NCBI RefSeq assembly: GCF_001679665.1
Contig: NZ_CP013244.1
Span: 1,302,001 to 1,366,000, forward strand
Length of the DNA stretch: 64,000 nt
Source of the DNA: Candidatus Viadribacter manganicus
GTDB taxonomy: Bacteria; Pseudomonadota; Alphaproteobacteria; Caulobacterales; Aquidulcibacteraceae
Reading direction: 5' to 3'
Part shown: in pieces, positions 2,692 to 45,813 of the stretch
Layout of the letters: each line of letters begins with the position of its first letter
How positions within the stretch are numbered: the first letter of the stretch is position 1
Position numbers and translations under genes: made by a program
Notes under the pieces: generated by a model
What the model was told of the DNA's origin: nothing
Seen by the model: the letters and a program-made list of their open reading frames with translations, nothing else
Database searches by the model: none

Positions 2692-5600
2692 CTAGGCGGG
2701 AGGCGCGCCGTCAGAGACGGTGACAGCCAGGACATTGTCATCGGAGTTGCGGTCGATGCGTTTATTGTAGGGATCTATCCCCGCAAACGTCGGCTCTCGG
2801 TCCACGGTAAAGCTTATCGTCTGACGCCCGCTCCGGATGGGCCGGCGTTCGAAGGTGATGACATCGTCGCGCGAGAATGCGCCCTCACCCGGTTCGGCGG
2901 TGAAGATGCCGAACTCGAACGCCTCGTTGAGCGGCGCTTCGGTTTCTGCGCCTTCGCCATCGGCGTAGAGCTTGCGCGCTTCGACCACCATGGTGACATC
3001 CCAGCGCCCATCGGCCCGCGCACGGGTCTCGGCCGACACCACACGCGCATCGTAAAGCGTGATGCGCTCGAAAAGATCGGTGATCAGCGCTTGGTGCGCC
3101 GGATTGGGCCCAACCTCTTCACGAAGGATGCGGACGAAATCCGACGAGCGCGGATACGGCGCGCCATGAAAGGCGTATTCTTCCAGCAAACGCTGCATGG
3201 CGCGGTTGACGGCGTCTTCGCCGACTTCGTTGCGCAGGAAGTACATAGCGAGGCCGCCCTTGCGGTAGTGGATATAACCTTGGTTCTCCACCCGCATCAG
3301 CGGCAATTCCTCGATCACTTCGCCGCCGCGCGAGCGGAGGTAGTTGTCGAGCTCTTGGCGAAGAAAGCGCCGGACCTGGTCGGGGCCGAGGATCTCTTCC
3401 ATCACCAGCAATGCCGAATACGAGGCAAACGTCTCCGACAGCATGGTCGAGCCCTGCATATCAGCGCCGATGATCTGATGCGCCCACCATTGGTGCGCGA
3501 CCTCGTGGGCGGTTACGTAAGTGACGTAATCTACCTTTTCGGTTTCGCGCTCAGCTGTCGCGTCATCGTAGCGCGCGATAAAGCCAATAGCCTCTGAATA
3601 CGGCACCGTGTTCGCGAACGATTGAGCGAACTGGGCGTAAGCTGGAAACTCGAGGATGCGCATCTGGCGAAACTGGAACGGCGAGAACTCGCGCTCGAAC
3701 ACTTCGAACGAGACCTTCATCGCCCGCATCATCCGCTCAACATTGTAAGGGTGATGGCGGTCGTAATAGACGGCCAGGTCGATATTGTTGTAGCGATCAC
3801 GCGCCACTTCGTAGTCTGCAGACTGGATCGAAAAGAAGTGCATGATCGGCGCTTCGGTGCGGAAGCGCGCGGTGACGCGCCCGTTCTCGGTTCGCTGAGA
3901 CACTTCATAGCCGGGCGCGATGGGAATTTGCCCCTCATCCGTCGTCACGGTTATATCGGCGTTCACCCAATCGGCGTCGTGGCGCAAATAATGGAACTCG
4001 CGCGCCGCATCGTCTTCAAGGCGGGCCATGCGCAGATCTGGCTCAAGACCGTAGCGGCGCCGGCGAGCCCGATCTTGCAACAGGCCGCTGCGGTCAAATC
4101 CCAACACCGGCGCTAACATGCGATCGTTCATGAAGGTGCCGTTATTGTTAACTGGGATCGCCCCGCCCCCATTGGTGAAGCCGCGCGCTTCATAGCGCGT
4201 CGTGAAGCGAATCTCGCGGCGCTCTTGAGGCTGCATCGGCGTATCGAGGCGCCAAATCTGGAATGGAAAGCTCTGCGCATGCTCGGCGAAGTCGTCGGCA
4301 AGTGTTGCGCCGTCGATGGCGACGCTGTCGAGTTCCAGATCTTGCGGCCACATCAGATGCACTTCGGTGAGCGGCGCGCCTGTACGATTTTCTACCGTGT
4401 AGGATCCCGTCGTCACCGCACGGTGCTGGCGCGGGAAAACTTGAACGCTCAAGACGACGTCCGTCACCTTAGGCTGAGGCGCGTCTTCGTATTGCAGAAG
4501 CGCGCGTTCCATGTCGGCCAGACGCGCCTCGCTCGCGAGATTGGAGCGATATTCGTTGAGCACATTGGTGTTGTAGTAAATCCAGCCACCGACGCTGGCG
4601 AAGCTCACGGCCAGCAGCGCAACCAACACGCCAGCGCCCCCCGCCAAACGCTGCGGCAGCCGCACCAGCTGCGGCAAGAGCCGCGTGTCGGCGCCGCGGC
4701 GCCAAAGCGCATAGGTGAGCACAATCAACACCAGCGCAAAGATCGACCAATAGAGCTGGAACCAAGCAACGCCGATCCAATAATGACTGTGCTCGTTCAT
4801 CTCCGAGAGCGGCGCACTCGGCGTGGCGCCGTAGAGATAGAGATTGTGATCGAAACCCAATTGCGAAAGCGTGATAGTGCCGATGAGATAGACCAGCATC
4901 ACGCCCCAGCCGATGAATTTGTGGGGCGTCAACACTTGCGCAAATATGGCGAGCGCCGCGAACGTGAAGCATGAAAAGAGCGACGGCAGTACGTACCAGA
5001 GCATGTACTGGCCGATATTGAAGGCGCCAAAACCCTTCAGCATCTGCACAAGAACGCCCGCGACCACGCTGACGCCAATGCACGCGGCGAGCACCGCAAA
5101 AAGCGCCAACACCTTGGGCGCAGCGAATGTCCAATCGGGCGCGGGCGTCGTGTCAACGATTTCATGCATCCGCTTTTCGCGGTCACGCCACACCAGCTCA
5201 CCAGCATAATAGGTAGCGATGATGATCGGAAAGATCGTGAAGCTGCCCATCAGAGCCTGCGTCATCAGCATCGTCACCGGATAGACGATGATGTCGCCGC
5301 GGATCGTGTCAGCATACCAAAGAGCGCCGTAGGCATTGAGCAGGCCCACCATCAAGAGCACGATGAAGGCGGGTCCCCTCAACACATAGCCGAACTCAAA
5401 GCGCGCGCGCGCCAGGACTTGCGACAAGGCGGCGCCAACAGAGAAACTGCGACGCGCGGCATGACCTGCGCTCGCAAGCAGCGGATCGGACGGTGTTTGC
5501 GCGTCAAGCTTGGCGCGCTTGCGGCTGGCCTTCGAGCCCTTCGAGGAAAATGAGAACAGCAGGTAGGCTGCGCCAAGCGAGACAAGCGCGACGCCCATCC

Positions 5601-6336
5601 AGATGCCGCGATTGATCAGCCATTGGCTTGAGAGCGGCGGCAATAAAGTATTGCGCTCTGCCGCGGTCCAATAGCGCGTCTCTTGGACAATAGCGCCCAA
5701 GCCGTAGGGCTCGAGCAGCGTAACCAGATCTTCGTGCTCAGGCCGGTTGAAGATGCCCTGCATTACAAAATAGAGCACGAGGAAAACAACAAGACCGATA
5801 TAGCTGCCCATCATCGAGCGCGTGAGGGTCGCGAGCGCGAAAAACATGCACGCGCACAGGAACAATGTCGGCACGCCAGCGACGAAGTACCCGTAAAGAT
5901 AGTGCATGGGGACAAACGGCCCCATCGTCTCGGGATCGACCCACGGCATGAACGAGCCAACCATCATGCCGATGGGTACGGCGGTCAGCACGATCATGCT
6001 GGCCATAAACGCGCCGGTGAAACGCCCGAACAAATAGTCGAACTTGGTCATGCGCGTCGATTGAATGATCGGGCCAAAGCCCGTCTCCACGTCACGCAAG
6101 ATGACGTTGGCCACGAAGGCGACGACGACGAACTGGGCGAATATCGCCATCACCGCCGTCGACATGATGATCGAGAACGGGCTGTTCTCGTGAATATTGC
6201 CGCCTCCGCCCCCGATCGAGACATTGTCGCTTGAGACCGCAAAGAACGTCATCAGGAAGAAGAACAGAAAGACGATCCAGAGCACGGGGCTCTTCAGCTG
6301 GTAGCGAAGCTCGAAGCCGGCGATTTTTCCGAACAT
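2692..6336 (-). CDS. ABC-2 type permease fused to M1-like aminopeptidase
   Basis: A 1214-residue protein. The N-terminal half (about 1-600) has around twelve hydrophobic helices in two ABC-2 permease-like blocks, including the segment with RDVETGFGPIIQSTRMTK. The C-terminal half is a gluzincin peptidase: HEVAHQWW places zinc ligands at His944 and His948 with Glu945, and the third ligand is Glu968 in SETFASYSALL. The His948-Glu968 gap is 19 residues, one longer than the classical M1 spacing. It follows the ABC ATPase gene by 14 bp, so the two form one transporter. Permease-peptidase fusions of this kind occur in several proteobacteria; the exported or processed substrate is unknown. Confidence 0.85.
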   Translation of the reverse strand: MFGKIAGFELRYQLKSPVLWIVFLFFFLMTFFAVSSDNVSIGGGGGNIHENSPFSIIMSTAVMAIFAQFVVVAFVANVILRDVETGFGPIIQSTRMTKFDYLFGRFTGAFMASMIVLTAVPIGMMVGSFMPWVDPETMGPFVPMHYLYGYFVAGVPTLFLCACMFFALATLTRSMMGSYIGLVVFLVLYFVMQGIFNRPEHEDLVTLLEPYGLGAIVQETRYWTAAERNTLLPPLSSQWLINRGIWMGVALVSLGAAYLLFSFSSKGSKASRKRAKLDAQTPSDPLLASAGHAARRSFSVGAALSQVLARARFEFGYVLRGPAFIVLLMVGLLNAYGALWYADTIRGDIIVYPVTMLMTQALMGSFTIFPIIIATYYAGELVWRDREKRMHEIVDTTPAPDWTFAAPKVLALFAVLAACIGVSVVAGVLVQMLKGFGAFNIGQYMLWYVLPSLFSCFTFAALAIFAQVLTPHKFIGWGVMLVYLIGTITLSQLGFDHNLYLYGATPSAPLSEMNEHSHYWIGVAWFQLYWSIFALVLIVLTYALWRRGADTRLLPQLVRLPQRLAGGAGVLVALLAVSFASVGGWIYYNTNVLNEYRSNLASEARLADMERALLQYEDAPQPKVTDVVLSVQVFPRQHRAVTTGSYTVENRTGAPLTEVHLMWPQDLELDSVAIDGATLADDFAEHAQSFPFQIWRLDTPMQPQERREIRFTTRYEARGFTNGGGAIPVNNNGTFMNDRMLAPVLGFDRSGLLQDRARRRRYGLEPDLRMARLEDDAAREFHYLRHDADWVNADITVTTDEGQIPIAPGYEVSQRTENGRVTARFRTEAPIMHFFSIQSADYEVARDRYNNIDLAVYYDRHHPYNVERMMRAMKVSFEVFEREFSPFQFRQMRILEFPAYAQFAQSFANTVPYSEAIGFIARYDDATAERETEKVDYVTYVTAHEVAHQWWAHQIIGADMQGSTMLSETFASYSALLVMEEILGPDQVRRFLRQELDNYLRSRGGEVIEELPLMRVENQGYIHYRKGGLAMYFLRNEVGEDAVNRAMQRLLEEYAFHGAPYPRSSDFVRILREEVGPNPAHQALITDLFERITLYDARVVSAETRARADGRWDVTMVVEARKLYADGEGAETEAPLNEAFEFGIFTAEPGEGAFSRDDVITFERRPIRSGRQTISFTVDREPTFAGIDPYNKRIDRNSDDNVLAVTVSDGAPPA

Positions 6337-6350
6337 AATCTGGCTCCGCG

Positions 6351-7229
6351 TTAAGCTGCAGCGCGCGAAGCGGCGATCTTGGAGAAATAGACGTCCTCAA
6401 GCCCGCCTTCGACGGGCGCGAAGTCCGGCCCAGGCTGCGTTGGCGAAAGCACGTGGATGACGGTGCGCCCGCCAACGAGGCGTTCGGAAATGACGGTGTG
6501 CTGGGCGCGCACTGTATCTAACGCCTCGCGCGCTATTGTCGTGCGCCACACCTGGCCCTGCACTGACTGGCGCAATTGCTCGGGCGCGCCTTCGCTGACG
6601 ACTTTGCCGCCAGCGAGGATCGCCATCTTCGAGCAGAGCTGAGCGACGTCTTCAACAATGTGGGTTGAGAGAATGACGACGACTTCATCGCCGATCGCGG
6701 CGAGCAGATTGAGAAAGCGGTTGCGCTCTTCAGGATCAAGGCCGGCTGTGGGTTCATCGACGATCACAAGCTTCGGTTGACCGATCAGCGCTTGGGCAAT
6801 GCCGAAGCGCTGGCGCATGCCGCCTGAATAGCCCGAGAGCGCCTTCTTGCGCACGTTCCAAAGATTGACTTGGTTCAAGAGCGCGTTGACGGTTTCGCGG
6901 CGCTCTTTGCCGTTGGCGATGCCCTTTAAGACAGCGAGGTGATCAAGCATCGCTTCAGCACTGACGCGCGGATAGACGCCGAAATCCTGTGGCAGGTAGC
7001 CCAGCGTCCGACGCAACAGATCGGGTTGTTTGATGACGTCGATGTCGCCGAAGCGGACGGCGCCGGAACTCGGCGTCTGGAGCGTCGCCACCACGCGCAT
7101 CAAGGTCGATTTGCCGGCGCCGTTCGGTCCCAAGAGACCAAACATCCCGGTTCCAATCGATAGCCTCACATCGTCCAGAGCAACCACGCCGTTCGGATAG
7201 CGGTGTGTGAGGTTCTCAATGTGCAGCAT
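6351..7229 (-). CDS. ABC transporter ATP-binding protein
   Basis: A 292-residue ATPase partner of the downstream permease-peptidase. The Walker A motif GPNGAGKST is at residues 34-42, the Q-loop is in LGYLPQDFG, the signature is LSGYSGGMRQR and the Walker B is LVIVDEPTAGLDP, followed by a switch His in LSTHI. ATG 7229 is preferred over ATG 7253 because it opens directly with the conserved LHIENLTHRY strand and has GGGGAACC upstream. The 14-bp gap to the permease gene indicates an operon. Confidence 0.92.
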   Translation of the reverse strand: MLHIENLTHRYPNGVVALDDVRLSIGTGMFGLLGPNGAGKSTLMRVVATLQTPSSGAVRFGDIDVIKQPDLLRRTLGYLPQDFGVYPRVSAEAMLDHLAVLKGIANGKERRETVNALLNQVNLWNVRKKALSGYSGGMRQRFGIAQALIGQPKLVIVDEPTAGLDPEERNRFLNLLAAIGDEVVVILSTHIVEDVAQLCSKMAILAGGKVVSEGAPEQLRQSVQGQVWRTTIAREALDTVRAQHTVISERLVGGRTVIHVLSPTQPGPDFAPVEGGLEDVYFSKIAASRAAA

Positions 7230-7412
7230 GGCGGTTCCCCGTTCGAGAGGCATCGACCCGCCTCTACTTTATCGATCTTCAATAATTTCGGCGCCCAAGG
7301 TCAAGCTATTTTATCGTTTAGCGATATAGGCGCGTATCGAGGCGACGAACGGCAGCCTTGGCGAGGTTTGACGTGAGCAGGTTGGATCAGATCCGCCGGA
7401 TCTTGGATTTCG

Positions 7413-9209
7413 TCACGTAGATCCCCCCGACCGCACGCGCCGGAAGAACAACGAACCAACATCCTCTGACTCGATGCGAAGACCAACTGGCCTTCCGGCA
7501 GCGTCGCGAACAAACGTGAGAGAGGGAACGAACCACTTGTCTGAGGAAAATGCGTCGGCTTGCTGCCGCGTTAGCCGGATATCACCCGCGGCGCGATGCC
7601 GTGCGACGATGCTTTGTCCAACCTGAAAGATTTCGTAGTCAGCCTCGATCTCATCGGAATGATATCGTCCTACAAGCTCCGCAATCTCACCGTTACTAAG
7701 AACGGCCTGCGTCGAGGGCACATAATCGTCTGTTGGCGCTTCAATCGGTCCGGGCGCAATCCCCAAAAAGAGGTTTTCGATGACACGCACGCGCTCATAG
7801 GTCGCGTCATTCCCGTCATTAGCTAGATAGATGACGCGAACATGATCGTCGGGAAAATCATGGACCGATGTTCTAAAGCCCGCCGCCAATCCCTGATGAC
7901 CGACCATTGCATGATCGCCGCGCCGGCCATGCCAATTGCCGAAGACATAATCTGTCTCAGTTCCCGTCGGCGAGGCCGAAGCCTGCGTGACAAGCCGCTG
8001 CACTTGCCCGCCCCCCAACGGATCAGTCCGATAGTTCTCGATCCAGCGTTGCAGATCATGTGCGCTGCACGCGAGACCGCTGGAGCCTAAGGTGATCGTT
8101 CTCTCAGTCGATGTGGAGATCGGCTCAGGAAATTGTCTTCGGAATGAGGTAACGCGAGCTGGAATTGCTGCGTCTCTCTCCAAAGAACACTCGCGCATAC
8201 CAAGAGGTGCAAAGATATTCTCTGTCGCCCAGAGATCGTAGGGTTGGCCCGTTACGCGTTCAATGATCTTCGCGAGGAGCACATAACCCGTGTTGGAGTA
8301 ACGCTGCTCTGCGCCAGGCGTGAAGTTCAACGATTGCTGACGAGCAGCCATCGCCACCACGTCGTCTATCGAAATTCCATCCTCGATATTTCGTCCAGTC
8401 AGTGCGAAGAGGCCATCCCAGTCACGTAGGCCGCTCGTATGCTCGAGAAGATGCTGAACGGTGATTGGCGTCCCATAGTCCGGCAGCTCTGGCAGATAAC
8501 GCCGCACATCATCATCGAGCCTGAGTTGGCCTCGTTCTACCAACAGAGCGACACCGTAAGCGGTGAATTGCTTCGAGACTGAAGCCAGATCGATAGGCGA
8601 TTGCAGCGAAAGCGGCCGGTGACCGTCGGAATTCTCCACCCCAATTGCGCCCTGGTAAGAGATCTCGCCATCCTGCATCACCACAAGCACGGCGCCTGGC
8701 CCGCCGGGCTCGTACCAACTTTCAAACAATTGGGCGGCTCGATCGGCGGGGCGGTATTGGGTACGCTCGTGTCGCGTCAATTCGATCGTGTACGAGACGT
8801 CCGAAGCATCCCACTCGAACATGGCGATCTGGATGGCGTATTCACCCGCTCTCGCGGCATCGATCGTAACGACTTCGGCCTGGCCCTCGCCATTTTGATC
8901 GAAGATGCCGACAACCGCACCCTCTGGGTCAAATACAACCGCCGCGAGATTGCCTTGCAGCTGCGGAATGCGCACCGCAGCGAAATCTCCAGCCTGCAAA
9001 CGCAGGGAGTAACGCTGAACCTGACCTCCCTGAAGCGTGGCGCTCATGGGTCGGCGAAGGCGCAACTGGGAGGTCGCGAGTTCGGGGTGCGGCGCAACAA
9101 AACGCGACGTTGGAAACAAGCTCGCGCCAGAGTGAGCTGCGGCAGGCCCTCCAGCGGCGACCAGTGAGCAACAAGCCAGCAAGCTCAAGCGCAAGACGTT
9201 CGTTCTCAT
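7413..9209 (-). CDS. Secreted beta-lactamase-family serine hydrolase
   Basis: About 598 residues with an N-terminal signal peptide ending near GGPAAAHS. A beta-rich region at about 45-150 resembles pre-peptidase domains. The class C beta-lactamase/D-alanyl-D-alanine peptidase domain follows: SVSK (Ser210, Lys213 counting from ATG 9209) is the SxxK nucleophile motif, YSNTGY supplies the Tyr-x-Asn motif, and GHQG replaces the KTG motif. ATG 9209 is chosen over 9215 because GGGGG then sits at good Shine-Dalgarno spacing. It likely acts in the periplasm on esters, amides or peptidoglycan fragments; which of these is not shown. Confidence 0.85.
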   Translation of the reverse strand: MRTNVLRLSLLACCSLVAAGGPAAAHSGASLFPTSRFVAPHPELATSQLRLRRPMSATLQGGQVQRYSLRLQAGDFAAVRIPQLQGNLAAVVFDPEGAVVGIFDQNGEGQAEVVTIDAARAGEYAIQIAMFEWDASDVSYTIELTRHERTQYRPADRAAQLFESWYEPGGPGAVLVVMQDGEISYQGAIGVENSDGHRPLSLQSPIDLASVSKQFTAYGVALLVERGQLRLDDDVRRYLPELPDYGTPITVQHLLEHTSGLRDWDGLFALTGRNIEDGISIDDVVAMAARQQSLNFTPGAEQRYSNTGYVLLAKIIERVTGQPYDLWATENIFAPLGMRECSLERDAAIPARVTSFRRQFPEPISTSTERTITLGSSGLACSAHDLQRWIENYRTDPLGGGQVQRLVTQASASPTGTETDYVFGNWHGRRGDHAMVGHQGLAAGFRTSVHDFPDDHVRVIYLANDGNDATYERVRVIENLFLGIAPGPIEAPTDDYVPSTQAVLSNGEIAELVGRYHSDEIEADYEIFQVGQSIVARHRAAGDIRLTRQQADAFSSDKWFVPSLTFVRDAAGRPVGLRIESEDVGSLFFRRVRSGGST

Positions 9210-9441
9210 CGCCATCCCCCAATCACAACAGCTAAGAGATGCGCACCATCACCGCCTTGGATGCATCTGGGCGCAGCTAGGTCGCGAAGTAGCTTCTCAC
9301 GAGGGGCCCGCCAGCGTCGCAGCAAGGAATTGTGCGGCCGGTCTAATCTCGTGGCTACCGCCAGCAAAAGCGCTCTGCGTGTTGCCGAGGCATGTCCGTC
9401 GCGGCTACGAGCCAGATATCAACCCAAGGCGACGGTGCAAA

Positions 9442-10113
9442 ATGAACAAGAGGGTTCTCATTGTCGGAAATAGCGACGGAATGGGCTTAGCGTTGACAAA
9501 GCGCCTAGTCGCACGAGGCGATAGCGTTCTTGGCGTATCAAGATCTGACTTCGCGCCATTGGGCATGCAGCACCAACAACACAAACTCGATATACGCACC
9601 CCTGGCTTCTACGATAAATTGTGCGAACTGATAGCCGAAGACCAATCCGTCGACATCGCGGTCTATTGCGCCGGAATGGGTGAACCCTTTGGGACATCTG
9701 ACGTCACCGCAGATGCCGACACGATCCGCGTAAATCTCGGCGGCCTTGCTGACACCGTTCGCGCCGTGCTGCCTGGGATGAGAGGTCGCAGGAAGGGGCA
9801 GATTGTCGGGGTGTCGAGCATTGGAGACATGGCGTCCGCCGCTGCGCCAGCTTATGGCGCTTCAAAAGCTGGTGTCACCGCTTACCTGCGCGGACTTCGC
9901 CGCCCTCTCGGCGCGCTTGGCGTTCGCGTGAGCGTCGTGCGGTTGGGCTTTGTCGCAACCAAGATGGCGAAAGCGGACTTTCGCCCATTCATGATCAGCG
10001 CCGATGCGGCCGCATCAATCTTGCTCAACGTGATAGACAAAGCGCCTGCCAGTAAAACCCACCCATGGACAATGCATGTGCTGACGCGAATGCTGTCGCC
10101 GTTCATGGCGTAA
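9442..10113 (+). CDS. Short-chain dehydrogenase/reductase (SDR)
   Basis: A 223-residue Rossmann protein. It begins MNKRVLIVGNSDGMGLAL, a variant of the TGxxxGxG dinucleotide-binding turn. VYCAGMG is in the place of the NAG motif. The catalytic set is the serine in VGVSSIGD and YGASK (Tyr-x-x-x-Lys). It probably carries out an NAD(P)-linked oxidoreduction of an alcohol or ketone. The start at 9442 is chosen because the preceding in-frame codons are Arg/Pro-rich and unlike protein. It is transcribed away from the upstream hydrolase gene. Confidence 0.85.
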   Translation: MNKRVLIVGNSDGMGLALTKRLVARGDSVLGVSRSDFAPLGMQHQQHKLDIRTPGFYDKLCELIAEDQSVDIAVYCAGMGEPFGTSDVTADADTIRVNLGGLADTVRAVLPGMRGRRKGQIVGVSSIGDMASAAAPAYGASKAGVTAYLRGLRRPLGALGVRVSVVRLGFVATKMAKADFRPFMISADAAASILLNVIDKAPASKTHPWTMHVLTRMLSPFMA

Positions 10114-13060: not shown

Positions 13061-14353
13061 CTACCGCTCACGCGCGACACGAAGGCCGCCTCCGTCGTGG
13101 GCCTCAGAAAATTGATCTACCGCGCCGCCGAGTTCGGATTCGCTTGAGTGCCAAGAGCCTCCCAAGAAGCGCATACTCTGCGAGTCCTCCAGGACAAGTT
13201 CTGAAACATTGCCGAGGACGTCGTAGAGACCAAAAGCGTTCGGCTGAAACGAGCCAACGGGGAGCGGCCCATTCAATCCGCACGCGCCGTAGGCCACGCC
13301 GTTGCGCGCGCCGCGGGCGCAACCCGGCGCATCATTGCCCCAGTAATAGTTCTGCTGCCGTCCACCCGGGAACGCAGCCACGCTCCATTCCTCGAAAGTC
13401 AGCCAACGATAACGATGCCCGGTTCGCTGACTAAGCCATTCCAGGTACACATCAGCGCCACCGCTTATGCCGACAACGGGATGCCTCGCGTCTCCCTCAA
13501 GCAGGCTCCCGCCGCTCGGGCAACCTCCGTCAGTGATGCAAGCATTCCACTGCCCGATCGTCACTTCATGTTGGCTGATAGCGATCGACAGGCCAGGAAT
13601 CCAAACCATAAACGGGCAATCGCCGCAGTCTCGAAATGGCTGCGGTGTCGGATACGATACCGATATGGGCGCGGCGCGGCTTCGCAGATCTCTGCACGGG
13701 GCGGAGACATCATGCACCGGACATTCGTCGATACGATCCTCCACCCCCGGCATCATCGGATCACGAAGCCAGCCATTGCGGCGCCCGTCTTCGCGCTCGA
13801 CGTAAACCCAGTCGATACTTTCGGCGCCAGCGTCTTCGTATCTTATTTCGGGAGAGTCTTCGCCGCCGGTGGAAACGTCGATGGGGCCGCCGCGTCGCCA
13901 ATATCTCATGGTCCCGCCGCCCTCGTCATCGTATTCGGCCCAGAGAAGATAAAGCACGTCGCCTACTTCAACTCCGCCGCCGGCGCGCGTGACGACGCCG
14001 CGCCGAGGTTGAATGTGCTGCTCATAGCGAACGGCGTTCACCCATTCGCCGACGGCAAGGCGGTCCATAACTGGGGCGCTGATGCGAGGCTCGGCATAGA
14101 CCGGCGTTTCACCATCCGCCAACCAGCGCCCCGGAAAATTAAGGCAACCTCTGTAGTTGCACCCCATCGATGCATGCTCGAAGCGAGCGTAGCCGCCTTC
14201 AACTATATCGAGCCCCGCGAGCGCTGGGTCAGTGGGATTTTCCTGCGCTTGTGGAGCGGCGTTTCCCTCATCGGGCCCCAACGCGCCGCTAATCTGCGCG
14301 CACGCGCTCACGAGAAGCACAAGCGCCGCCGCCAACGCCAAACGAACGTGCAT
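13061..14353 (-). CDS. Lipoprotein with FGE-sulfatase (SUMF1-like) domain
   Basis: A 430-residue lipoprotein: the signal sequence ends in LVSAC with the lipidated cysteine at 18. Residues about 50-190 form a beta-rich SH3-like region containing the motif YEQHIQPRRGVV. From about 235 an FGE/SUMF1-type domain follows, with HEVTIGQWNAC, the helix near YRWLTFEEW, YYWGND and the late GNVSEL and FLGGSWHSSE. At the place where catalytic FGE enzymes carry the paired cysteines the sequence reads GGSWHSS, so the domain is probably a ligand-binding fold, not an enzyme. It lies downstream of a cytosolic NTPase carrying the same kind of domain, a pairing that hints at shared ligand recognition on two sides of the membrane. 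Confidence 0.8.
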   Translation of the reverse strand: MHVRLALAAALVLLVSACAQISGALGPDEGNAAPQAQENPTDPALAGLDIVEGGYARFEHASMGCNYRGCLNFPGRWLADGETPVYAEPRISAPVMDRLAVGEWVNAVRYEQHIQPRRGVVTRAGGGVEVGDVLYLLWAEYDDEGGGTMRYWRRGGPIDVSTGGEDSPEIRYEDAGAESIDWVYVEREDGRRNGWLRDPMMPGVEDRIDECPVHDVSAPCRDLRSRAAPISVSYPTPQPFRDCGDCPFMVWIPGLSIAISQHEVTIGQWNACITDGGCPSGGSLLEGDARHPVVGISGGADVYLEWLSQRTGHRYRWLTFEEWSVAAFPGGRQQNYYWGNDAPGCARGARNGVAYGACGLNGPLPVGSFQPNAFGLYDVLGNVSELVLEDSQSMRFLGGSWHSSESELGGAVDQFSEAHDGGGLRVARER

Positions 14354-14602: not shown

Positions 14603-16981
14603 TTACACCACTACCAAGCCAACTTTCGCAGAGCGGAAATCCGGATTCGCGCCGCCACTTTCGCCAACTCTAATGGGCAAGAGTCCGAGATACGCGCGAC
14701 TCTCGTCGTGCCATTCATGGGCCCACGAATAATCGAGCACAGGGGCGCCGGCCTCACACGCGTTCGCGTTGGACGCCAGCATCACCCGGTTTGACCATTT
14801 GCAATATTGAAAGGCGTCAAACCATGAAATGTTGGCGGCAGGTTCTGCGCCCCCAGCATCAAGCGCAAAGCCGTCGCGATCGAGCGCAATGCCCTGCACG
14901 CTCGTGTAGCCCAGCGCCGAAGGCGGATGATGGCCGAACCCGGTTTGCATGCGCCAACCGGTCTTTTTGCAGAAATCAGCAAAGGAGGCGCCGCTCACGT
15001 ATGACGGCGCACCGGCGTGGACTGCACCGACGTCGTAACCGCGCTTGAGGCGCGGCACCAGGAAACGGCACACATTGTAAGCGCCGATCAAATTGAAGCG
15101 CGCCAGCGCGATCGAGCGGTAGTCCGCCATCTCGATCGCTATGGCGCGTGACAAAAAGAATTCGAAGTATGAGTTATGCCGGAACGAGAACGCGCCATTG
15201 TCGGCTTCGACCAGCATCCCACATGCAAGCGCCGCTTCAGCAATATCATCTGGCGGCGCGACGCGGCTAAGCGCGCATAAGGAAAGCGTGTTCAACGCAT
15301 AGTCCACGTCTTTGCGGGCAATCCGATGATCGCGCAGCAATGTTGCCGAGATGGCAGTCTCATAAAGGCGGTCCAGGTCCACCACCCCGCCTTCGTCCAG
15401 CATAAGGGGCAGCGCTGTTTCAAGGAGTCGAAGTGTAAATGGCGCACGCGCGAACTGCGCAAGATCGGGCCTGCGCTCAACTTCGCGCGCCATCGCCTCA
15501 TTCAGGCCGGATAAGTATCGCCGGGCGTCGTTCTCTTTGACCTCCGTGAGTTTAAGGAATGCCGGGCGATCAGGGACAATGCCATTGAGCGCCATGGCGA
15601 TGGCGTCTTCGGTGCGGTCGACACAACCGTGGCTCCGCTGCTTTTCCAGGAACGGCAATGCCTCTTCGGCAAGGCCGGTATAGAACATGGTGCGGCAGGT
15701 CAACGCGATGCGCGCCCCACCTGGAATAGATTGCGCCAAGGCTTCGAGAGCTGACGCGTGCTCCGACAGATCGGTGTCGGTGGGGCGCATGATTTCATCA
15801 AGAGCGTCAAGCAAAAGCACAACTTCTCGCCGCCCAGCAGCTTCTGCCGCCAAATCCTGGTCCGGAGCATTCACCGCAAGTTCGCTCAATGCGGAGAACG
15901 AGTGGGGCGGCGCATTCCTCAGATCGCGGAACGAAATCAGTAGCGGCAACTCTTGTCGCTCGCTCGCGATCTCTGCTGCAAACCAACACATGAGGCCAGT
16001 TTTGCCGCTGCCGAAGTCTCCCAGGATGACGATGGAGCGCGGCGCCGGGCGATCGAGCCAATCCTGGAGCGCGGTTCGCGCGGAAACCTCATTGCCGTCT
16101 TCGGTGACTGCTTGAAGGTCAATCGGATCGCGCGCCCATGATTGAGACAAATGGTTCGCGGCAAGACCTGCCGCGTACCGCATACGCGCGCCCGCCGCGT
16201 TTGGCGCTGACCTGCCCTGGCGTTCGAGCATATCGAGGCGCAGCAGCTCCAGTGCGCGCACCAATGGCGCGACCACGGTATCAAGTTCTTGAGGTAGGGC
16301 TTCGACGCGCCGCGCGATTTCAGGAATACCGCGGGTCAGTTCCACGATTTCCACGATTTTGGTCGTGGTGAAGACCGCACAAAAACGCGTGTCGGTCTTC
16401 AGCGCTTCCATCAAGAAGGCAGCGAACGCATCGGCCCAGGCCGGAACGCCTTCGACCTTGCCGCAGAAGAGTGCTTCGAACTGTGCCGGCACAGCGACAC
16501 CACTAAGGGCTGCTGTCAATTCCGCTCGGACCGCCTCCTCCGCATCGGTCCGGATCTGCGCAAGCCGTGTTGGATCGAAGGCGTCGGCGGGGTTTAAGAA
16601 CGCCTCTTCGGCTGCCGCGTCGAGGCGCTTGGCGAGTTCTTCATCTACATTGTGCCTTCCGGCCTTATGAAGCTCTTCTGAAATCCAAGCCTGGGCGCGG
16701 TCGACAAAATGTTTAGCGTAAGGCGGAGAGAACCCCGCCCAATCCGGATCGGGATGCTTTTGGTACTTGCTGACCAGGAGATCGAGCGCTTGGAGCTGAG
16801 CGCTCCGCATCGCACGCAACGCGTCGTGATTGGCGGGAAGCCCTCGCCGTCCAGCAATACGGCGGACCACCTCTTGCGAAAACTCACAGAAGACGCGGTC
16901 CGAGCGGTTTCCGATGACGCCCTGCACCACGGCCGCAGCGCCACCCATCGCCAGCGCGCTTAGAGTGATTGGATCCGCCAC
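14603..16981 (-). CDS. NACHT/STAND-type NTPase with C-terminal FGS domain
   Basis: A 792-residue protein. Residues 1-300 are mainly helical. The NTPase core has Walker A GDFGSGKT at 321-328 and Walker B VVLLLDALDE at 387-396, followed by a TCRTMFY sensor motif and a winged-helix-like region ending in FRHNSYFEFFLSRAIA, all typical of NACHT proteins. The C-terminal 150 residues show FGE-sulfatase-like features (ISWFDAFQYCKWSNR). STAND NTPases with such sensor domains are known in bacterial conflict and antiphage systems. GTG 16981 has GAGGGG upstream. The gene overlaps the end of a frameshifted gene by 22 bases and is followed by an FGS lipoprotein gene. The effector domain is not identified; it may be the N-terminal helical region. 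Confidence 0.75.
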   Translation of the reverse strand: MADPITLSALAMGGAAAVVQGVIGNRSDRVFCEFSQEVVRRIAGRRGLPANHDALRAMRSAQLQALDLLVSKYQKHPDPDWAGFSPPYAKHFVDRAQAWISEELHKAGRHNVDEELAKRLDAAAEEAFLNPADAFDPTRLAQIRTDAEEAVRAELTAALSGVAVPAQFEALFCGKVEGVPAWADAFAAFLMEALKTDTRFCAVFTTTKIVEIVELTRGIPEIARRVEALPQELDTVVAPLVRALELLRLDMLERQGRSAPNAAGARMRYAAGLAANHLSQSWARDPIDLQAVTEDGNEVSARTALQDWLDRPAPRSIVILGDFGSGKTGLMCWFAAEIASERQELPLLISFRDLRNAPPHSFSALSELAVNAPDQDLAAEAAGRREVVLLLDALDEIMRPTDTDLSEHASALEALAQSIPGGARIALTCRTMFYTGLAEEALPFLEKQRSHGCVDRTEDAIAMALNGIVPDRPAFLKLTEVKENDARRYLSGLNEAMAREVERRPDLAQFARAPFTLRLLETALPLMLDEGGVVDLDRLYETAISATLLRDHRIARKDVDYALNTLSLCALSRVAPPDDIAEAALACGMLVEADNGAFSFRHNSYFEFFLSRAIAIEMADYRSIALARFNLIGAYNVCRFLVPRLKRGYDVGAVHAGAPSYVSGASFADFCKKTGWRMQTGFGHHPPSALGYTSVQGIALDRDGFALDAGGAEPAANISWFDAFQYCKWSNRVMLASNANACEAGAPVLDYSWAHEWHDESRAYLGLLPIRVGESGGANPDFRSAKVGLVVV

Positions 16982-41835: not shown

Positions 41836-42615
41836 ATGGGTAAAATTCTACGCCGAACCTTTCTGGCCAGCGCTGGCGCGGGCATGTTCGCAGCCAGCGC
41901 CAAGGCTCAATCAGACGACACCTTCGATGAAGACCAACGCGGCGATCCAGACATCGCCTACGAGACCGTGCGTGTGGATCCTGAAAAAGTTGCAGCGCTG
42001 TCTTCAAATCAGGTTCGCGCAACCTTCAATCCGGCAAACGCAGACTTTGCGACCTCGCTTTTGGCGACAGCTGACCGATTTGTCGGCGTCAGCCGCGCCA
42101 ACAATGAAAACCAGGTCATTGCGTTTCTCGATCTCTTTGACCTTCCCTTTCGCGACAATCGCGGCGAGTTCGTTCCCTATTGCGCCACCGGACTGGCCTA
42201 CACCGCAGCGCTTGCCTATTACGAATTCTGGAATGTGGGTCAGACCACAACCAATGTGATGACCATTCGCCAGTCCCTGCCGGAACTGATGCGCTATCAC
42301 TTTTATCCTTCACCTTCGGTCATCGACATGTACTACACAGCGCGCGGCATGCGGCGCTGGCGCGATGCAAGCAACGCCGACGCGCGCCCGACGCCAAAGC
42401 CAGGATGGCTGGTTGTCTACAGCTTCGGACGCGAAGCCGACCATGTGGGCATCGTTGAATCGGCCGACGCGACAACGCTCAACACCATCGAATTCAACAC
42501 CACCAACGGTCTCTCAGGCAGCCAACGCAATGGCGGCATGGTGGCAAGACGCACACGACCCTACGGTCAAAACGTCAAAGGCTTTATCGCAACCGACGCT
42601 CGGCGCCTGCCATGA
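41836..42615 (+). CDS. Exported CHAP/NlpC-like cysteine hydrolase
   Basis: A 259-residue protein with a twin-arginine-like leader (RRTFLASAGAGMFAASAKAQ). The hydrolase part has Cys116 in FVPYCATGLAY and His203 in EADHVGIV, followed by a strand and a GGMVARRTRP block before the C-terminal GFIATD. This Cys-His order and spacing fits CHAP amidase/endopeptidase domains that cut peptidoglycan peptides. The TGA overlaps the start of the caspase-OmpA gene by four bases, so the two are coupled. Both are exported, so they may act together in the periplasm. Confidence 0.7.
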   Translation: MGKILRRTFLASAGAGMFAASAKAQSDDTFDEDQRGDPDIAYETVRVDPEKVAALSSNQVRATFNPANADFATSLLATADRFVGVSRANNENQVIAFLDLFDLPFRDNRGEFVPYCATGLAYTAALAYYEFWNVGQTTTNVMTIRQSLPELMRYHFYPSPSVIDMYYTARGMRRWRDASNADARPTPKPGWLVVYSFGREADHVGIVESADATTLNTIEFNTTNGLSGSQRNGGMVARRTRPYGQNVKGFIATDARRLP

Positions 42616-44015
42616 TGACCAGAGCGCCGGGCCTTCTTTTGATGCTGCTTACACTTTTGTTTGCCGCGCCGTCGGCTGCGCGGCCTTTGGCTGTGGACGT
42701 CAATGGCGCCCCGCGTGTGCTTTACCAGGAACGCCACGCCTTACTTATCAGCGCCGCCCATTACGAACACGCTGAGACATGGCCTGCGCTTAGCGAAATT
42801 CCGAACGATACAGCAAGGCTTGAAGTAGCGCTGATGGCGCAGGGATACGAAGTCGAAACGCTGCCTGACCCCCATTCCGAACAGCTGCTTGTTCGCATGC
42901 AGGCCTTCATGGCGCGCTATGGATCGCCGGATTCCGCTATTCTCATTGTCTATTCGGGGCATGGCTGGACCGATCCGGCCACACAGCTAGGCTACATCGT
43001 GCCCGTCAATGCGCCAGATCCGGCCAGCGATCGCAGCGGCTTTCTGGCATCAGCGGTGTCGCTCAATATGGTGCGGGCGCTGGCCAGCGAGTCACGCGCC
43101 AAACACACGCTGTTTGTGTTTGATTCGTGCTTCTCAGGCTCGATCTTCACCACCCGATCGCACAATGGCGCCCCCTCGCCGCGGCAACGCGATGTCGCCG
43201 CCTTCACCCGGCTTTCGCAGCCTACCGTGCAGATCCTGACCTCAGGCAGCGCCAACGAACGGGTGCCGGGCCACAGCATCTTTATGGATGCCTTCATCAG
43301 CGCGGTCGGCGGCAATTCCCAGCCTGACATTGACGCAGACGGCGTCCTCACCTTCGACGAGATCGAGTTTTGGTTTCGCCACGTCGTCCAATTACCCAAT
43401 CAAACACCGCAATCAGGTTTCCTCACCTCATTCACCAATGACGGTCAATTTGTACTTCGCTCAAGTGCGCTTGCCCCCGGTGAGACCGCAGAAACCGCAG
43501 ATGACGAATTTTGGGACAGCCTCGTTGATGGCCCCATCACCAGCGCAAGCGCACGCCAATATCTTGCCTATTTTCCGCTCGGCGCTCATGCCGCCCAGGC
43601 GCAATACTTTTTGCAAAGGCCGCAAACGCCAATCATCCTCGAAGGCGTAGCTGCTGGTACAAATCAGCCATGTTCTGGCGTTCGCCGCGAAGGCGTCGTT
43701 TATTTTGCCTGGAACCGCACCAATCTCAGTGCAGAGGCCGCAACCACCTTAGATGATTTTCGTCAGCACGCGGACGCTACCGAATGGATCGTTGTAAACG
43801 GCCACACCGATACGCTCGCAGCCGATCAATTTTCGATGGATCTTTCCCGGCGCGCGGCCATAACCGTGAGCGATTATCTCAGCGCCAACGGCTTTGCCCG
43901 CGGCCTTTTGACAACGATCGCGTCAGGAGAGCTAAGCCCGGCCAGACCCACCGCAGATGGCGTTCGAGAGCCACTCAACCGACGCGTCACGATCACGGCG
44001 TGCGTGCGTAACTAA
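42612..44015 (+). CDS. Secreted caspase-like peptidase fused to OmpA domain
   Basis: A 467-residue protein with a signal peptide. Residues 38-260 are a C14 caspase fold: His117 in IVYSGHGWTD and Cys173 in FVFDSCFSGS form the catalytic dyad. The C-terminal 110 residues are an OmpA-like peptidoglycan-binding domain (VVYFAWNRTNLSAEA and VVNGHTDTLAADQFSMDLS). A caspase tethered to the cell wall is unusual, and it is translationally coupled to a CHAP-like hydrolase. The peptidase substrate is unknown. Roles in envelope remodelling or in abortive defence are both possible. Confidence 0.85.
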   Translation: MMTRAPGLLLMLLTLLFAAPSAARPLAVDVNGAPRVLYQERHALLISAAHYEHAETWPALSEIPNDTARLEVALMAQGYEVETLPDPHSEQLLVRMQAFMARYGSPDSAILIVYSGHGWTDPATQLGYIVPVNAPDPASDRSGFLASAVSLNMVRALASESRAKHTLFVFDSCFSGSIFTTRSHNGAPSPRQRDVAAFTRLSQPTVQILTSGSANERVPGHSIFMDAFISAVGGNSQPDIDADGVLTFDEIEFWFRHVVQLPNQTPQSGFLTSFTNDGQFVLRSSALAPGETAETADDEFWDSLVDGPITSASARQYLAYFPLGAHAAQAQYFLQRPQTPIILEGVAAGTNQPCSGVRREGVVYFAWNRTNLSAEAATTLDDFRQHADATEWIVVNGHTDTLAADQFSMDLSRRAAITVSDYLSANGFARGLLTTIASGELSPARPTADGVREPLNRRVTITACVRN

Positions 44016-44265
44016 ACGCCCGACAATTGGGGTTAGCGCACCTACGCCTAGATTATTGTCCCGCGCGTTTGCTCAAAAGCATCCGCGAGCTCAGGGCCGA
44101 CACCTCCGCCCAGAGACGAGCCCCAAAGAGTTGAGCGTTGCACAAGGCCACGCCGCTCCTTGCCTCAGCGACCTCCCGGGGGACCTTGACGTCATGCGCA
44201 TCATGCATCCACGCTCACATTGGTGACGGCGACCCCCATCGACCGTGCGCTTAAACGAGGTGGGC

Positions 44266-45813
44266 ATGAAATTCGTCGCTTTCATCAGTTATGCGCATGC
44301 GGATCAACGATTCGCAAAAAAGCTGCACACCGCTCTAGAGCAGTATCGAATTCCAGCGGCGCTGCGATCGGGGGCGCGCTGCCGCGAAGACGGCGGCATC
44401 GGTCGTCTATTTAGAGATGACGATGAGCTGGGCGCCGGCGATAGCCTTGGCGCGGCGCTTGAGGGGGCGATTGACGAGTCTGCAAATATGATCGTGATCG
44501 CAAGCCCAGCTTCAGCCACCTCTAAGTGGGTCGACAAAGAAGTTCGACGTTTCAAGCGCAGACAGGACGGTTCGAAAGTCTTAGCCGTCATCGTTGCAGG
44601 ATCGCCAGGCGCAAATACGAGCGAAGAGTGCTTTTGCCCCTCGCTCAAAGTGCAGATCGACGGCAACGGCGAACCCACCACAATTCTTGACGAGCCGCTT
44701 GCGCCCAACGCGAGCAAAGAGCCGTTCCGCAAACTGGTCGTCCGGCTCGTCGCTGCGCTTTCGGGTCTCGATTTTGACGTGCTTTGGCAAAGGAACGCCA
44801 GGCGCCAGCGTGGTCGTATGATGGCGCTTGCAGGCGCAATCGTGGGGCTGACGCTGGTTGGCGCGATAAGCGTTCAATTGACTGTTCGATCTCAATTGGC
44901 CGGAGAAGTCCAACGCGCGACCTCCTCGCTACAAAATCGTCGCGAGCGAGATCAGGCCGCTCAAGCAGCTTGGGCTCTATTCGACGGCGCCGCCAGATAC
45001 GGCGCAGATGTGACACCGCTTGAAGCGGCTGCGACAGGCACATTGATGGCGCTTAATGCTGCGCCGAGCGCCACCGACACGGATCGCTATACGCCAGAAC
45101 AGGCAAACACATTGCTTCGAGCAAGCGGCCTGCTGATCATCCCCGAACGGATTTTTATTTTAGATGCGGATCTGGACGGGAATGGATCTGCGCAGGAGAT
45201 GCAAGGCCCCATCCCGATCCTCGAATTTGCCCAAGGGCAACGCTGCGTCCGTGGAGGACTCTCGTCAGACAATAGCAGGCTTTTGATGGGCTGCGCTTTG
45301 CCAAGCACGAACGAATGGGGCGATCCTATCGATGTGTACTCAGTGTATTCCTTGGCGCCAGGGCAAACGCAGACGCAGCGCGAGGCGACAATCGAATATC
45401 ACGACCTCCCGCTTAGCGATGACCCAAGCAGCACTGTTGGCGCCCGCTATGTCTTTTCTCAAGAGTACGACCAAATTCTCATCCGCCCATCGAGCAATCG
45501 CGATGAGATCGTGTCTCGCATTACAATATATGCCTGGGGCATTGCGCACCGACGCTTCGTATTCGCGAACTCTAATGGACGTTGGCTCGTGCGCGTAAAC
45601 CCTTTTACTGTTTGGGAAGTGAGTGAAGACTCGATCCAGCGCGCCCAACAAGACGAACCCGTAAGGCTGCTCTGCGCCAATATCGGCATTTTAAGTCGTG
45701 GAGCGGTTCAGCAAATGTACCCACACGCTGCTTTCTTAAGGCATGCTGACGGGGAGTATGTCGCCATCCAAGCAATAGAAGAAAAATGCCGCGCTTTGGG
45801 ATATAACGCCTAG
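44266..45813 (+). CDS. TIR-domain protein with transmembrane helix and sensor region
   Basis: A 515-residue protein. The TIR domain (about 1-150) starts MKFVAFISYAHADQRFAKKL and has SPASATSKWVDKEVRRF, where the Glu may be the NADase catalytic residue. One membrane helix lies at about 186-207. The remaining 300 residues are beta-rich and may form a propeller-like sensor, though no repeat was clear. ATG 44266 has GAGG upstream. Bacterial TIR proteins often deplete NAD in antiphage defence or signal via modified nucleotides; here this is inferred only. It lies 250 bp after the caspase-OmpA gene, same strand. Confidence 0.75.
   Translation: MKFVAFISYAHADQRFAKKLHTALEQYRIPAALRSGARCREDGGIGRLFRDDDELGAGDSLGAALEGAIDESANMIVIASPASATSKWVDKEVRRFKRRQDGSKVLAVIVAGSPGANTSEECFCPSLKVQIDGNGEPTTILDEPLAPNASKEPFRKLVVRLVAALSGLDFDVLWQRNARRQRGRMMALAGAIVGLTLVGAISVQLTVRSQLAGEVQRATSSLQNRRERDQAAQAAWALFDGAARYGADVTPLEAAATGTLMALNAAPSATDTDRYTPEQANTLLRASGLLIIPERIFILDADLDGNGSAQEMQGPIPILEFAQGQRCVRGGLSSDNSRLLMGCALPSTNEWGDPIDVYSVYSLAPGQTQTQREATIEYHDLPLSDDPSSTVGARYVFSQEYDQILIRPSSNRDEIVSRITIYAWGIAHRRFVFANSNGRWLVRVNPFTVWEVSEDSIQRAQQDEPVRLLCANIGILSRGAVQQMYPHAAFLRHADGEYVAIQAIEEKCRALGYNA

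Follow-up and report, generated by a model that had tools for sequence, protein, structure and literature searches.

The 64,000-nucleotide stretch of Candidatus Viadribacter manganicus analysed here (NZ_CP013244.1, positions 1,302,001 to 1,366,000 of the forward strand; hereafter the window, whose numbering is used for positions) is part of a single complete contig of 3.73 Mb. It carries, in series on the + strand, three open reading frames (ORFs) encoding a CHAP-type hydrolase, a caspase fused to an OmpA-family domain and a TIR protein (Table 1). We tentatively favour the reading that the CHAP and caspase-OmpA genes make up a periplasmic unit of two genes, with the caspase acting on the CHAP protein and probably activating it, and that the TIR gene is an independent neighbour. 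The function-proven bacterial caspases of the canu and type IV Thoeris systems discussed below work in the cytosol; a caspase gene that overlaps the gene of a likely wall hydrolase leads to a concrete substrate hypothesis.

This reading is supported by the arrangement of the two genes, which lie on the same strand and share the bases ATGA as stop and start, and by export-type beginnings on both products. The original prediction, made from the sequence letters, had proposed three ORFs with these domains, the first two in a translationally coupled arrangement, and ORF calls, Pfam scores above the gathering cut-offs and the shared ATGA bear this out. The CHAP protein begins with MGKILRRTFLASAGAG, which by eye resembles a twin-arginine (Tat) signal (RRTFLASAGAG). 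At its N-terminus the caspase has a hydrophobic segment with a plausible signal-peptidase site at its end, and this signal-like beginning makes it apparently an exported protein. Judgements of export were made for both proteins by eye and from hydropathy.

Caspases are the proteases that underlie programmed cell death in animals. Membership of this superfamily is indicated by a complete predicted caspase fold with a His/Cys dyad. The Peptidase_C14 profile (PF00656) matches with 52.3 bits against a cut-off of 21.4. An AlphaFold2 model built on a 22-sequence alignment has a mean predicted local distance difference test score (pLDDT) of 70.9, with 151 residues at 90 or above, in the caspase part. 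Model residues 36-284 (p20 and p10) superpose on the human MALT1 paracaspase 4i1r with a Z score of 22.1 over 193 residues (root-mean-square deviation 2.2), and Foldseek concurs (E 3e-10). The predicted catalytic pair, His117 and Cys173, is found at these positions and is conserved across the aligned relatives. A conserved Asp171 stands before Ser172-Cys173. Orthocaspases are reported to cut after basic residues and, by analogy, cleavage after Arg or Lys is likely for the window caspase. Confidence of the model is low at residues 171-200 (block means 67, 62 and 70), which mark the loop following Cys173; the window caspase has a short insertion in this loop relative to aligned relatives (alignment A3). 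Beyond the caspase domain, a helical FW..YL..(Y/F)PxG module is common to several related caspases.

Relatives of the caspase are scarce nearby and scattered widely. The caspase region is matched in 2 of 299 genomes of the order, the own genome included (the other is a 31% identical caspase in genome G022), and in 30 of 385 genomes of the class, again with the own; within 1.5 kb on either side of the 29 class loci outside the own genome, tblastn found no CHAP, OmpA or TIR match. A profile of the window caspase and three class relatives (A1), searched across 84,980 species genomes, gave 76 loci in cyanobacteria, Nitrosomonas, Rhodospirillaceae, other Alphaproteobacteria, Desulfatibia, Acidobacteria and others; of 398 Pseudomonadota genomes searched by profile, 18 had a strong match, own included. 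Many related caspases have a signal-like N-terminal stretch. In an alignment of 38 members (A2: 36 of the 76 loci, locus L105 and the window; L-numbers are labels of the loci compared), the C-terminal ends vary: FGE-sulfatase in four, PDZ, TPR and SH3 in three each, GUN4, Sel1, PEGA and others in one each, and OmpA in one, the window itself. The window caspase is a member of a wide group of caspases that look exported and whose C-terminal ends are interchangeable, its OmpA end being one further exchange at a variable position. As a single query, the caspase-OmpA fusion gave no match in genome contigs or viral contigs, and none of the 18 plasmid records matched by the protein covers more than 80% of its length. 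A FastTree of caspase domains placed the window near L112, L219, L225 and L226 with supports of 0.0-0.12 and was not used as evidence.

Genes beside these caspases were surveyed as follows. At 36 of the 76 loci, neighbouring genes on the same strand and no more than 400 bases away were listed, and a first-pass Pfam or NCBIfam scan covered eight of their proteins (upstream at L111, L112, L113, L114, L122 and L147, downstream at L114 and L115). The upstream protein of L115 was scanned with NCBIfam and later Pfam, and other neighbours were searched with home-made OmpA, TIR, M23 and CHAP models, the last two of one sequence each. Of 20 further Pseudomonadota neighbourhoods 19 were displayed; L222 gave no caspase ORF. 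The counts given below come from local-model searches of 96 loci, 1.04 Mb in all; at 67 of these the caspase scores at least 120 bits.

Unrelated wall- or polysaccharide-acting enzymes directly upstream of related caspases support the proposed unit: an exported-looking Peptidase_M23 protein (41.4 bits) at L112, a Nitrosomonas metagenome-assembled genome (MAG), and a polysaccharide deacetylase (118.8 bits, gap of ~70 bases) at L224. OmpA genes upstream of caspases likewise support an envelope unit; a separate one (66.2 bits) precedes the related caspase by ~70 bases at L122 (Desulfatibia MAG), and another lies upstream of a row containing a more distantly related caspase at L173. At these four loci, caspases of this kind again stand beside wall-acting or OmpA genes. 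OmpA matches occur at 7 of the 96 loci, only two of which (L122 and L147) are among the 67 with closer caspases, and at L147, L159, L162 and L166 the match is to an opposite-strand gene. The own genome has ~7 caspase-independent OmpA domain matches in 3.73 Mb, or ~2 expected per 1.04 Mb; the enrichment near caspases is thus modest, and it is confounded by kinship. Individual partners are rare and the kind of partner recurs. Repeated pairing with unrelated wall-acting enzymes would mean that protease-controlled wall cutting evolved more than once.

The half of the CHAP protein that resembles a phage lysin supports a role as wall hydrolase. This lysin matches residues 189-243 (E 5e-7) and is the best of the partial matches; 12 plasmid and 2 phage records are matched over the C-terminal third of the protein or less, and a search of viral contigs gave no match. 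No full-length homologue was found beyond the own genome, which is 1 of 61 relatives and 1 of 385 class genomes. A single-sequence structure model (mean pLDDT 32.1) is not usable for fold assignment.

We propose that the CHAP protein is exported, perhaps by Tat, and the caspase by Sec. In the periplasm the caspase would act as a His/Cys protease which, judging from orthocaspases, may cut after Arg or Lys. The co-translated CHAP wall hydrolase would be its preferred partner and most likely substrate, activated by trimming of the charged leader after the signal. Envelope stress would then lead to a local peptidoglycan cut, up to lysis. The OmpA-type end would be a targeting domain acquired by the lineage, one that perhaps keeps the protease close to the wall only weakly, and the TIR protein would stand apart from the CHAP-caspase unit. 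A precedent for how such activation could work is canu, in which a bacterial caspase proteolytically activates a partner pro-nuclease (PMC12799240). The likeness is that of a caspase with a partner hydrolase; the canu partner, in contrast, is a cytosolic nuclease with gating loops (PMC12799240) and is not homologous to the CHAP protein.

Table 1. Features of the CHAP, caspase-OmpA and TIR genes in the window.
Feature	Position	Strand	Basis
CHAP-type hydrolase gene, 259 aa	41836..42615	+	ORF call; PF05257 27.9 bits
Cys116 codon, presumed CHAP nucleophile	42181..42183	+	by eye; outside Pfam match
His203 codon, presumed catalytic in CHAP	42442..42444	+	inside Pfam match
ATGA shared by CHAP stop and caspase start (4-base overlap)	42612..42615	+	sequence
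Caspase-OmpA fusion gene, 467 aa	42612..44015	+	ORF call; Pfam
Apparent Sec signal peptide, residues 1-23, without lipobox Cys	42612..42680	+	by eye and hydropathy
Caspase domain, residues 36-284	42717..43463	+	PF00656; predicted fold like MALT1 4i1r
Catalytic His117 codon	42960..42962	+	at least 90% conserved in two relative alignments (A2, A5)
Catalytic Cys173 codon	43128..43130	+	invariant in both relative alignments (A2, A5)
FW..YL..(Y/F)PxG helical module, residues 299-335	43506..43616	+	alignment A1; helices in model
OmpA-family domain, residues 364-456	43701..43979	+	PF00691 39.2 bits against 27.2
TIR - membrane helix - beta-rich tail gene, 515 aa from ATG	44266..45813	+	ORF call; Pfam
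TIR domain, residues 6-111	44281..44598	+	PF13676 (TIR_2) 52.4 bits
TIR Glu92 codon	44539..44541	+	phmmer alignment to Glu of SKWCLMEL in flax L6
Predicted membrane helix, residues 185-205	44818..44880	+	hydropathy, best 19-residue window from residue 185

Several observations weigh against the two-gene unit. The CHAP assignment is marginal: the profile cut-off is 26 bits and the match is limited to residues 173-221, the His half of the profile. Of the exported CHAP-like hydrolase that had been predicted, the above-cut-off match and, by eye, the export-like start stand, but the family call is marginal and covers half the profile. In Acinetobacter baumannii OmpA, Asp271 and Arg286 bind diaminopimelate (PMC5974059), and the window OmpA domain does not have this pair complete, as read from its sequence. 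Asp400 of its GHTD motif is retained, while Ala415 replaces the Arg of the xRA motif and Ser408 the Asn of YN; Arg is present at the Ala415 column in all six other OmpA domains aligned (A6). Arg413 and Arg414 adjoin Ala415 and could compensate. Anchoring to the wall by this domain is a possibility; the predicted peptidoglycan anchor holds as an OmpA-family domain, but without the canonical Arg the case for an anchor is weaker. The searches turned up no second copy of the CHAP-caspase pair. CHAP gave no match at the 96 related loci with its one-sequence model, and M23 matched at one, the locus whose protein made the model. The M23 gene at L112 overlaps the first possible caspase start by ~10 bases and the likelier Met start leaves a gap of ~46 bases. 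For most related caspases the partner genes are of other kinds or none is obvious, and the orphan protein encoded just before the caspase at L219 (see below) has no similarity to the window CHAP protein.

The OmpA domain shares 44% identity with OmpA barrels encoded in the own genome and 27-32% with OmpA proteins beside other caspases, which fits capture of this end from the own lineage. In the caspase model this part has a pLDDT below 50 because the alignment had no coverage there.

An alternative that we consider rather unlikely is that the CHAP protein and the caspase serve envelope upkeep, remodelling the wall or performing periplasmic protein quality control, with no part in death or defence and no substrate relation between them. 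The OmpA, M23 and deacetylase partners suit such ordinary envelope biology, and PADLOC gave no convincing model match (best for the caspase, E 2e-4), as for ten other window proteins, which had no PADLOC match. However, the genes are not found in the 298 other genomes of the order (caspase) or the 60 other relatives (CHAP), which is odd for upkeep, and the caspase dyad is retained.

It is unlikely that the locus is a one-off, possibly decaying fusion in one genome that happens to lie beside unrelated CHAP and TIR genes. The single known copy and the OmpA domain devoid of the Arg and Asn of the binding motif would fit such a chance neighbourhood, as would flanking gene order, which is not kept in four same-genus genomes: the downstream M48 gene has 78-89% relatives in all four and the upstream DsbA gene relatives in two, and no empty insertion site is demonstrable across them. 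On the other hand, the four-base overlap with the CHAP gene, the intact reading frames and the retained dyad argue against chance and decay. Codon use points the same way: 20 reference genes have a mean of 0.261 (standard deviation 0.054) and a maximum of 0.374, the caspase (0.239) and TIR (0.267) genes fall inside their range, and the CHAP gene (0.365) is near the maximum. A homologue of the upstream DsbA gene is found ~1 kb from a TIR_2 protein (8193-9926) at L103 in the same-genus genome G053.

The TIR protein of the window has the one membrane helix that had been predicted, seen as one clear hydrophobic stretch from residue 185. Its ATG start at 44266 is immediately preceded by GAGG and is likelier than the GTG at 44245. 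A TIR domain with a conserved Glu, as expected of an NADase, is present by alignment; Glu92 aligns with the Glu of SKWCLMEL in flax L6, which we take to be catalytic. By eye, arginines are enriched on the N-terminal side of the membrane helix, a charge pattern that probably places the TIR domain in the cytosol and the tail in the periplasm. TIR matches were found in 21 of 61 genomes searched, including the own, which has three. Among 19 homologues, read fully or partly, a TIR domain with a membrane helix is common and the tails differ (WD40, TPR, FGE-like and others), and the window tail has no match beyond its own gene in the 61 genomes. Judged from these comparisons, the gene is a member of a lineage-wide, modular family of TIR, helix and variable tail.

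Elsewhere in the own genome, a TIR-rich stretch at 3.396-3.420 Mb (L108, L109) holds two TIR-helix proteins of ~960 aa, one of them WD40-tailed, together with a second short TIR gene and, by eye, a patatin-like gene. The window itself also encodes, on the - strand at 14603-16981, a NACHT protein with an FGE-like end, which has no PADLOC match and adjoins an FGE-sulfatase lipoprotein (13061-14353).

The original prediction had placed the three genes in one cassette. What stands of it is an exported-looking caspase-OmpA overlapping the CHAP gene with a TIR gene following; the claim of one cassette is not supported, given the 250-base gap between caspase and TIR on the same strand, the lineage-wide TIR family and the scarcity of TIR matches beside related caspases. 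We regard as quite unlikely a three-gene immune cassette in which, on the pattern of type IV Thoeris, TIR and caspase belong to one pathway and the CHAP protein does the killing. The genes share a strand, and no + strand terminator-like site lies between caspase and TIR (the region has only two in total, below shuffled sequences). The neighbourhood survey that had been suggested as a check found TIR matches at 3 of the 96 loci, each of which belongs to the 67 with closer caspases and has its TIR match within ~120 bases of the caspase frame: TIR-TPR genes downstream of the caspase at L114 and L115 (cyanobacterial MAGs; gaps ~133 and 66 bases) and a TIR-STAND-WD40 gene convergent to it at L223. 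The original prediction had named absence of TIR beside the pair in most relatives as a sign of envelope maintenance only; looked at for the caspase group instead of the pair, the remaining 64 of the 67 loci have no TIR match in the stretches searched. The scores of L114 and L115, which are related to each other, are inflated since both were included in building the TIR model. The TIR tails of the window and of this cyanobacterial pair are unrelated, and beside the 19 TIR homologues of the order no caspase was matched in the short flanking stretches examined. In type IV Thoeris the TIR product activates a caspase-like protease (PMC12847820), but the window caspase looks exported, and a TIR product made in the cytosol would not get to it. 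The signal that TIR makes and the caspase senses in type IV Thoeris is N7-cADPR.

It is very unlikely that the locus is a switch for death or defence that spans the envelope, in which the exported caspase senses wall or outer-membrane damage and activates the CHAP protein outside the membrane while the one-helix TIR protein, its tail sharing the periplasm with them, adds cytosolic NAD depletion; if true, it would be the extracytoplasmic counterpart of cytosolic caspase-nuclease and TIR-caspase systems.

Among known systems, type IV Thoeris resembles the window in having adjacent TIR and caspase-like genes (PMC12847820) and differs in that the window caspase appears exported and carries OmpA. 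This assignment is unlikely because the partners must meet in one compartment. A better look-alike is a rhizobial locus (L063, 4627-6996, on the conjugative plasmid p4 of Rhizobium binae) with TIR, caspase, DUF1273 and a second TIR in series.

The EACC1-caspase system consists of a small upstream gene and an N-terminal caspase with a variable C-terminal domain and is envelope-proximal (Kaur et al. 2020, PMC7159879), features that the window shares. Its model NF047832 is the best NCBIfam match of the window caspase (63.6 bits) and of the caspases at L111, L112 and L114. However, none of the scores comes near the cut-off of 140 and the window caspase falls outside the family; moreover, its upstream gene encodes a CHAP hydrolase in place of the one-helix EACC1 protein, and the window caspase has an apparent signal peptide. 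An EACC1-like model built from four cyanobacterial loci matched six cyanobacterial loci and left the window unmatched.

A survey of prokaryotic metacaspases (Asplund-Samuelsson et al. 2012, PMC3501461) reported cell-wall binding domains in 14 of 671 sequences, Amidase_2 in four and OmpA in 14 operons, so that, as in the window, secreted caspases occurred with a wall-binding or wall-cutting domain or operon partner. In the portions available OmpA is an operon partner, whereas it is fused in the window, and a CHAP domain is not mentioned (PMC3501461). That exported caspases can carry wall domains and that OmpA occurs in caspase operons has been on record since 2012. As far as our searches go, what is new is the fusion to an OmpA domain whose binding motif is altered, the overlapping wall-hydrolase gene and its M23 counterpart elsewhere; in the open-licence literature searched, no description of a CHAP-caspase-OmpA set was found.

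Small exported or one-helix proteins are encoded just upstream of exported caspases at the cyanobacterial loci L111, L113, L114, L115, L117 and L124, overlapping the caspase start by four bases at L113, L114 and L115. Those scanned have no Pfam or NCBIfam match; they are like EACC1 in place and topology, and kinship with EACC1, for which no family model gives confirmation, is possible. By eye, a similar-looking small protein is encoded one base upstream of the caspase at L233, a contig from the viral collection. At L219, an orphan exported-looking protein (7020-7994, - strand) ends 3-4 bases before an exported caspase gene and was found in its own genome only, among 130 of its order. Motifs seen by eye (MCVAAV, SGHAVV) had suggested a papain-like partner, which is unsupported as no Pfam family scores above chance. 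On a further viral-collection contig (L234, ~5569-7500) the caspase gene is surrounded by genes that by eye resemble those of P2-type phage tails, and it is possibly a phage-carried defence or counter-defence gene.

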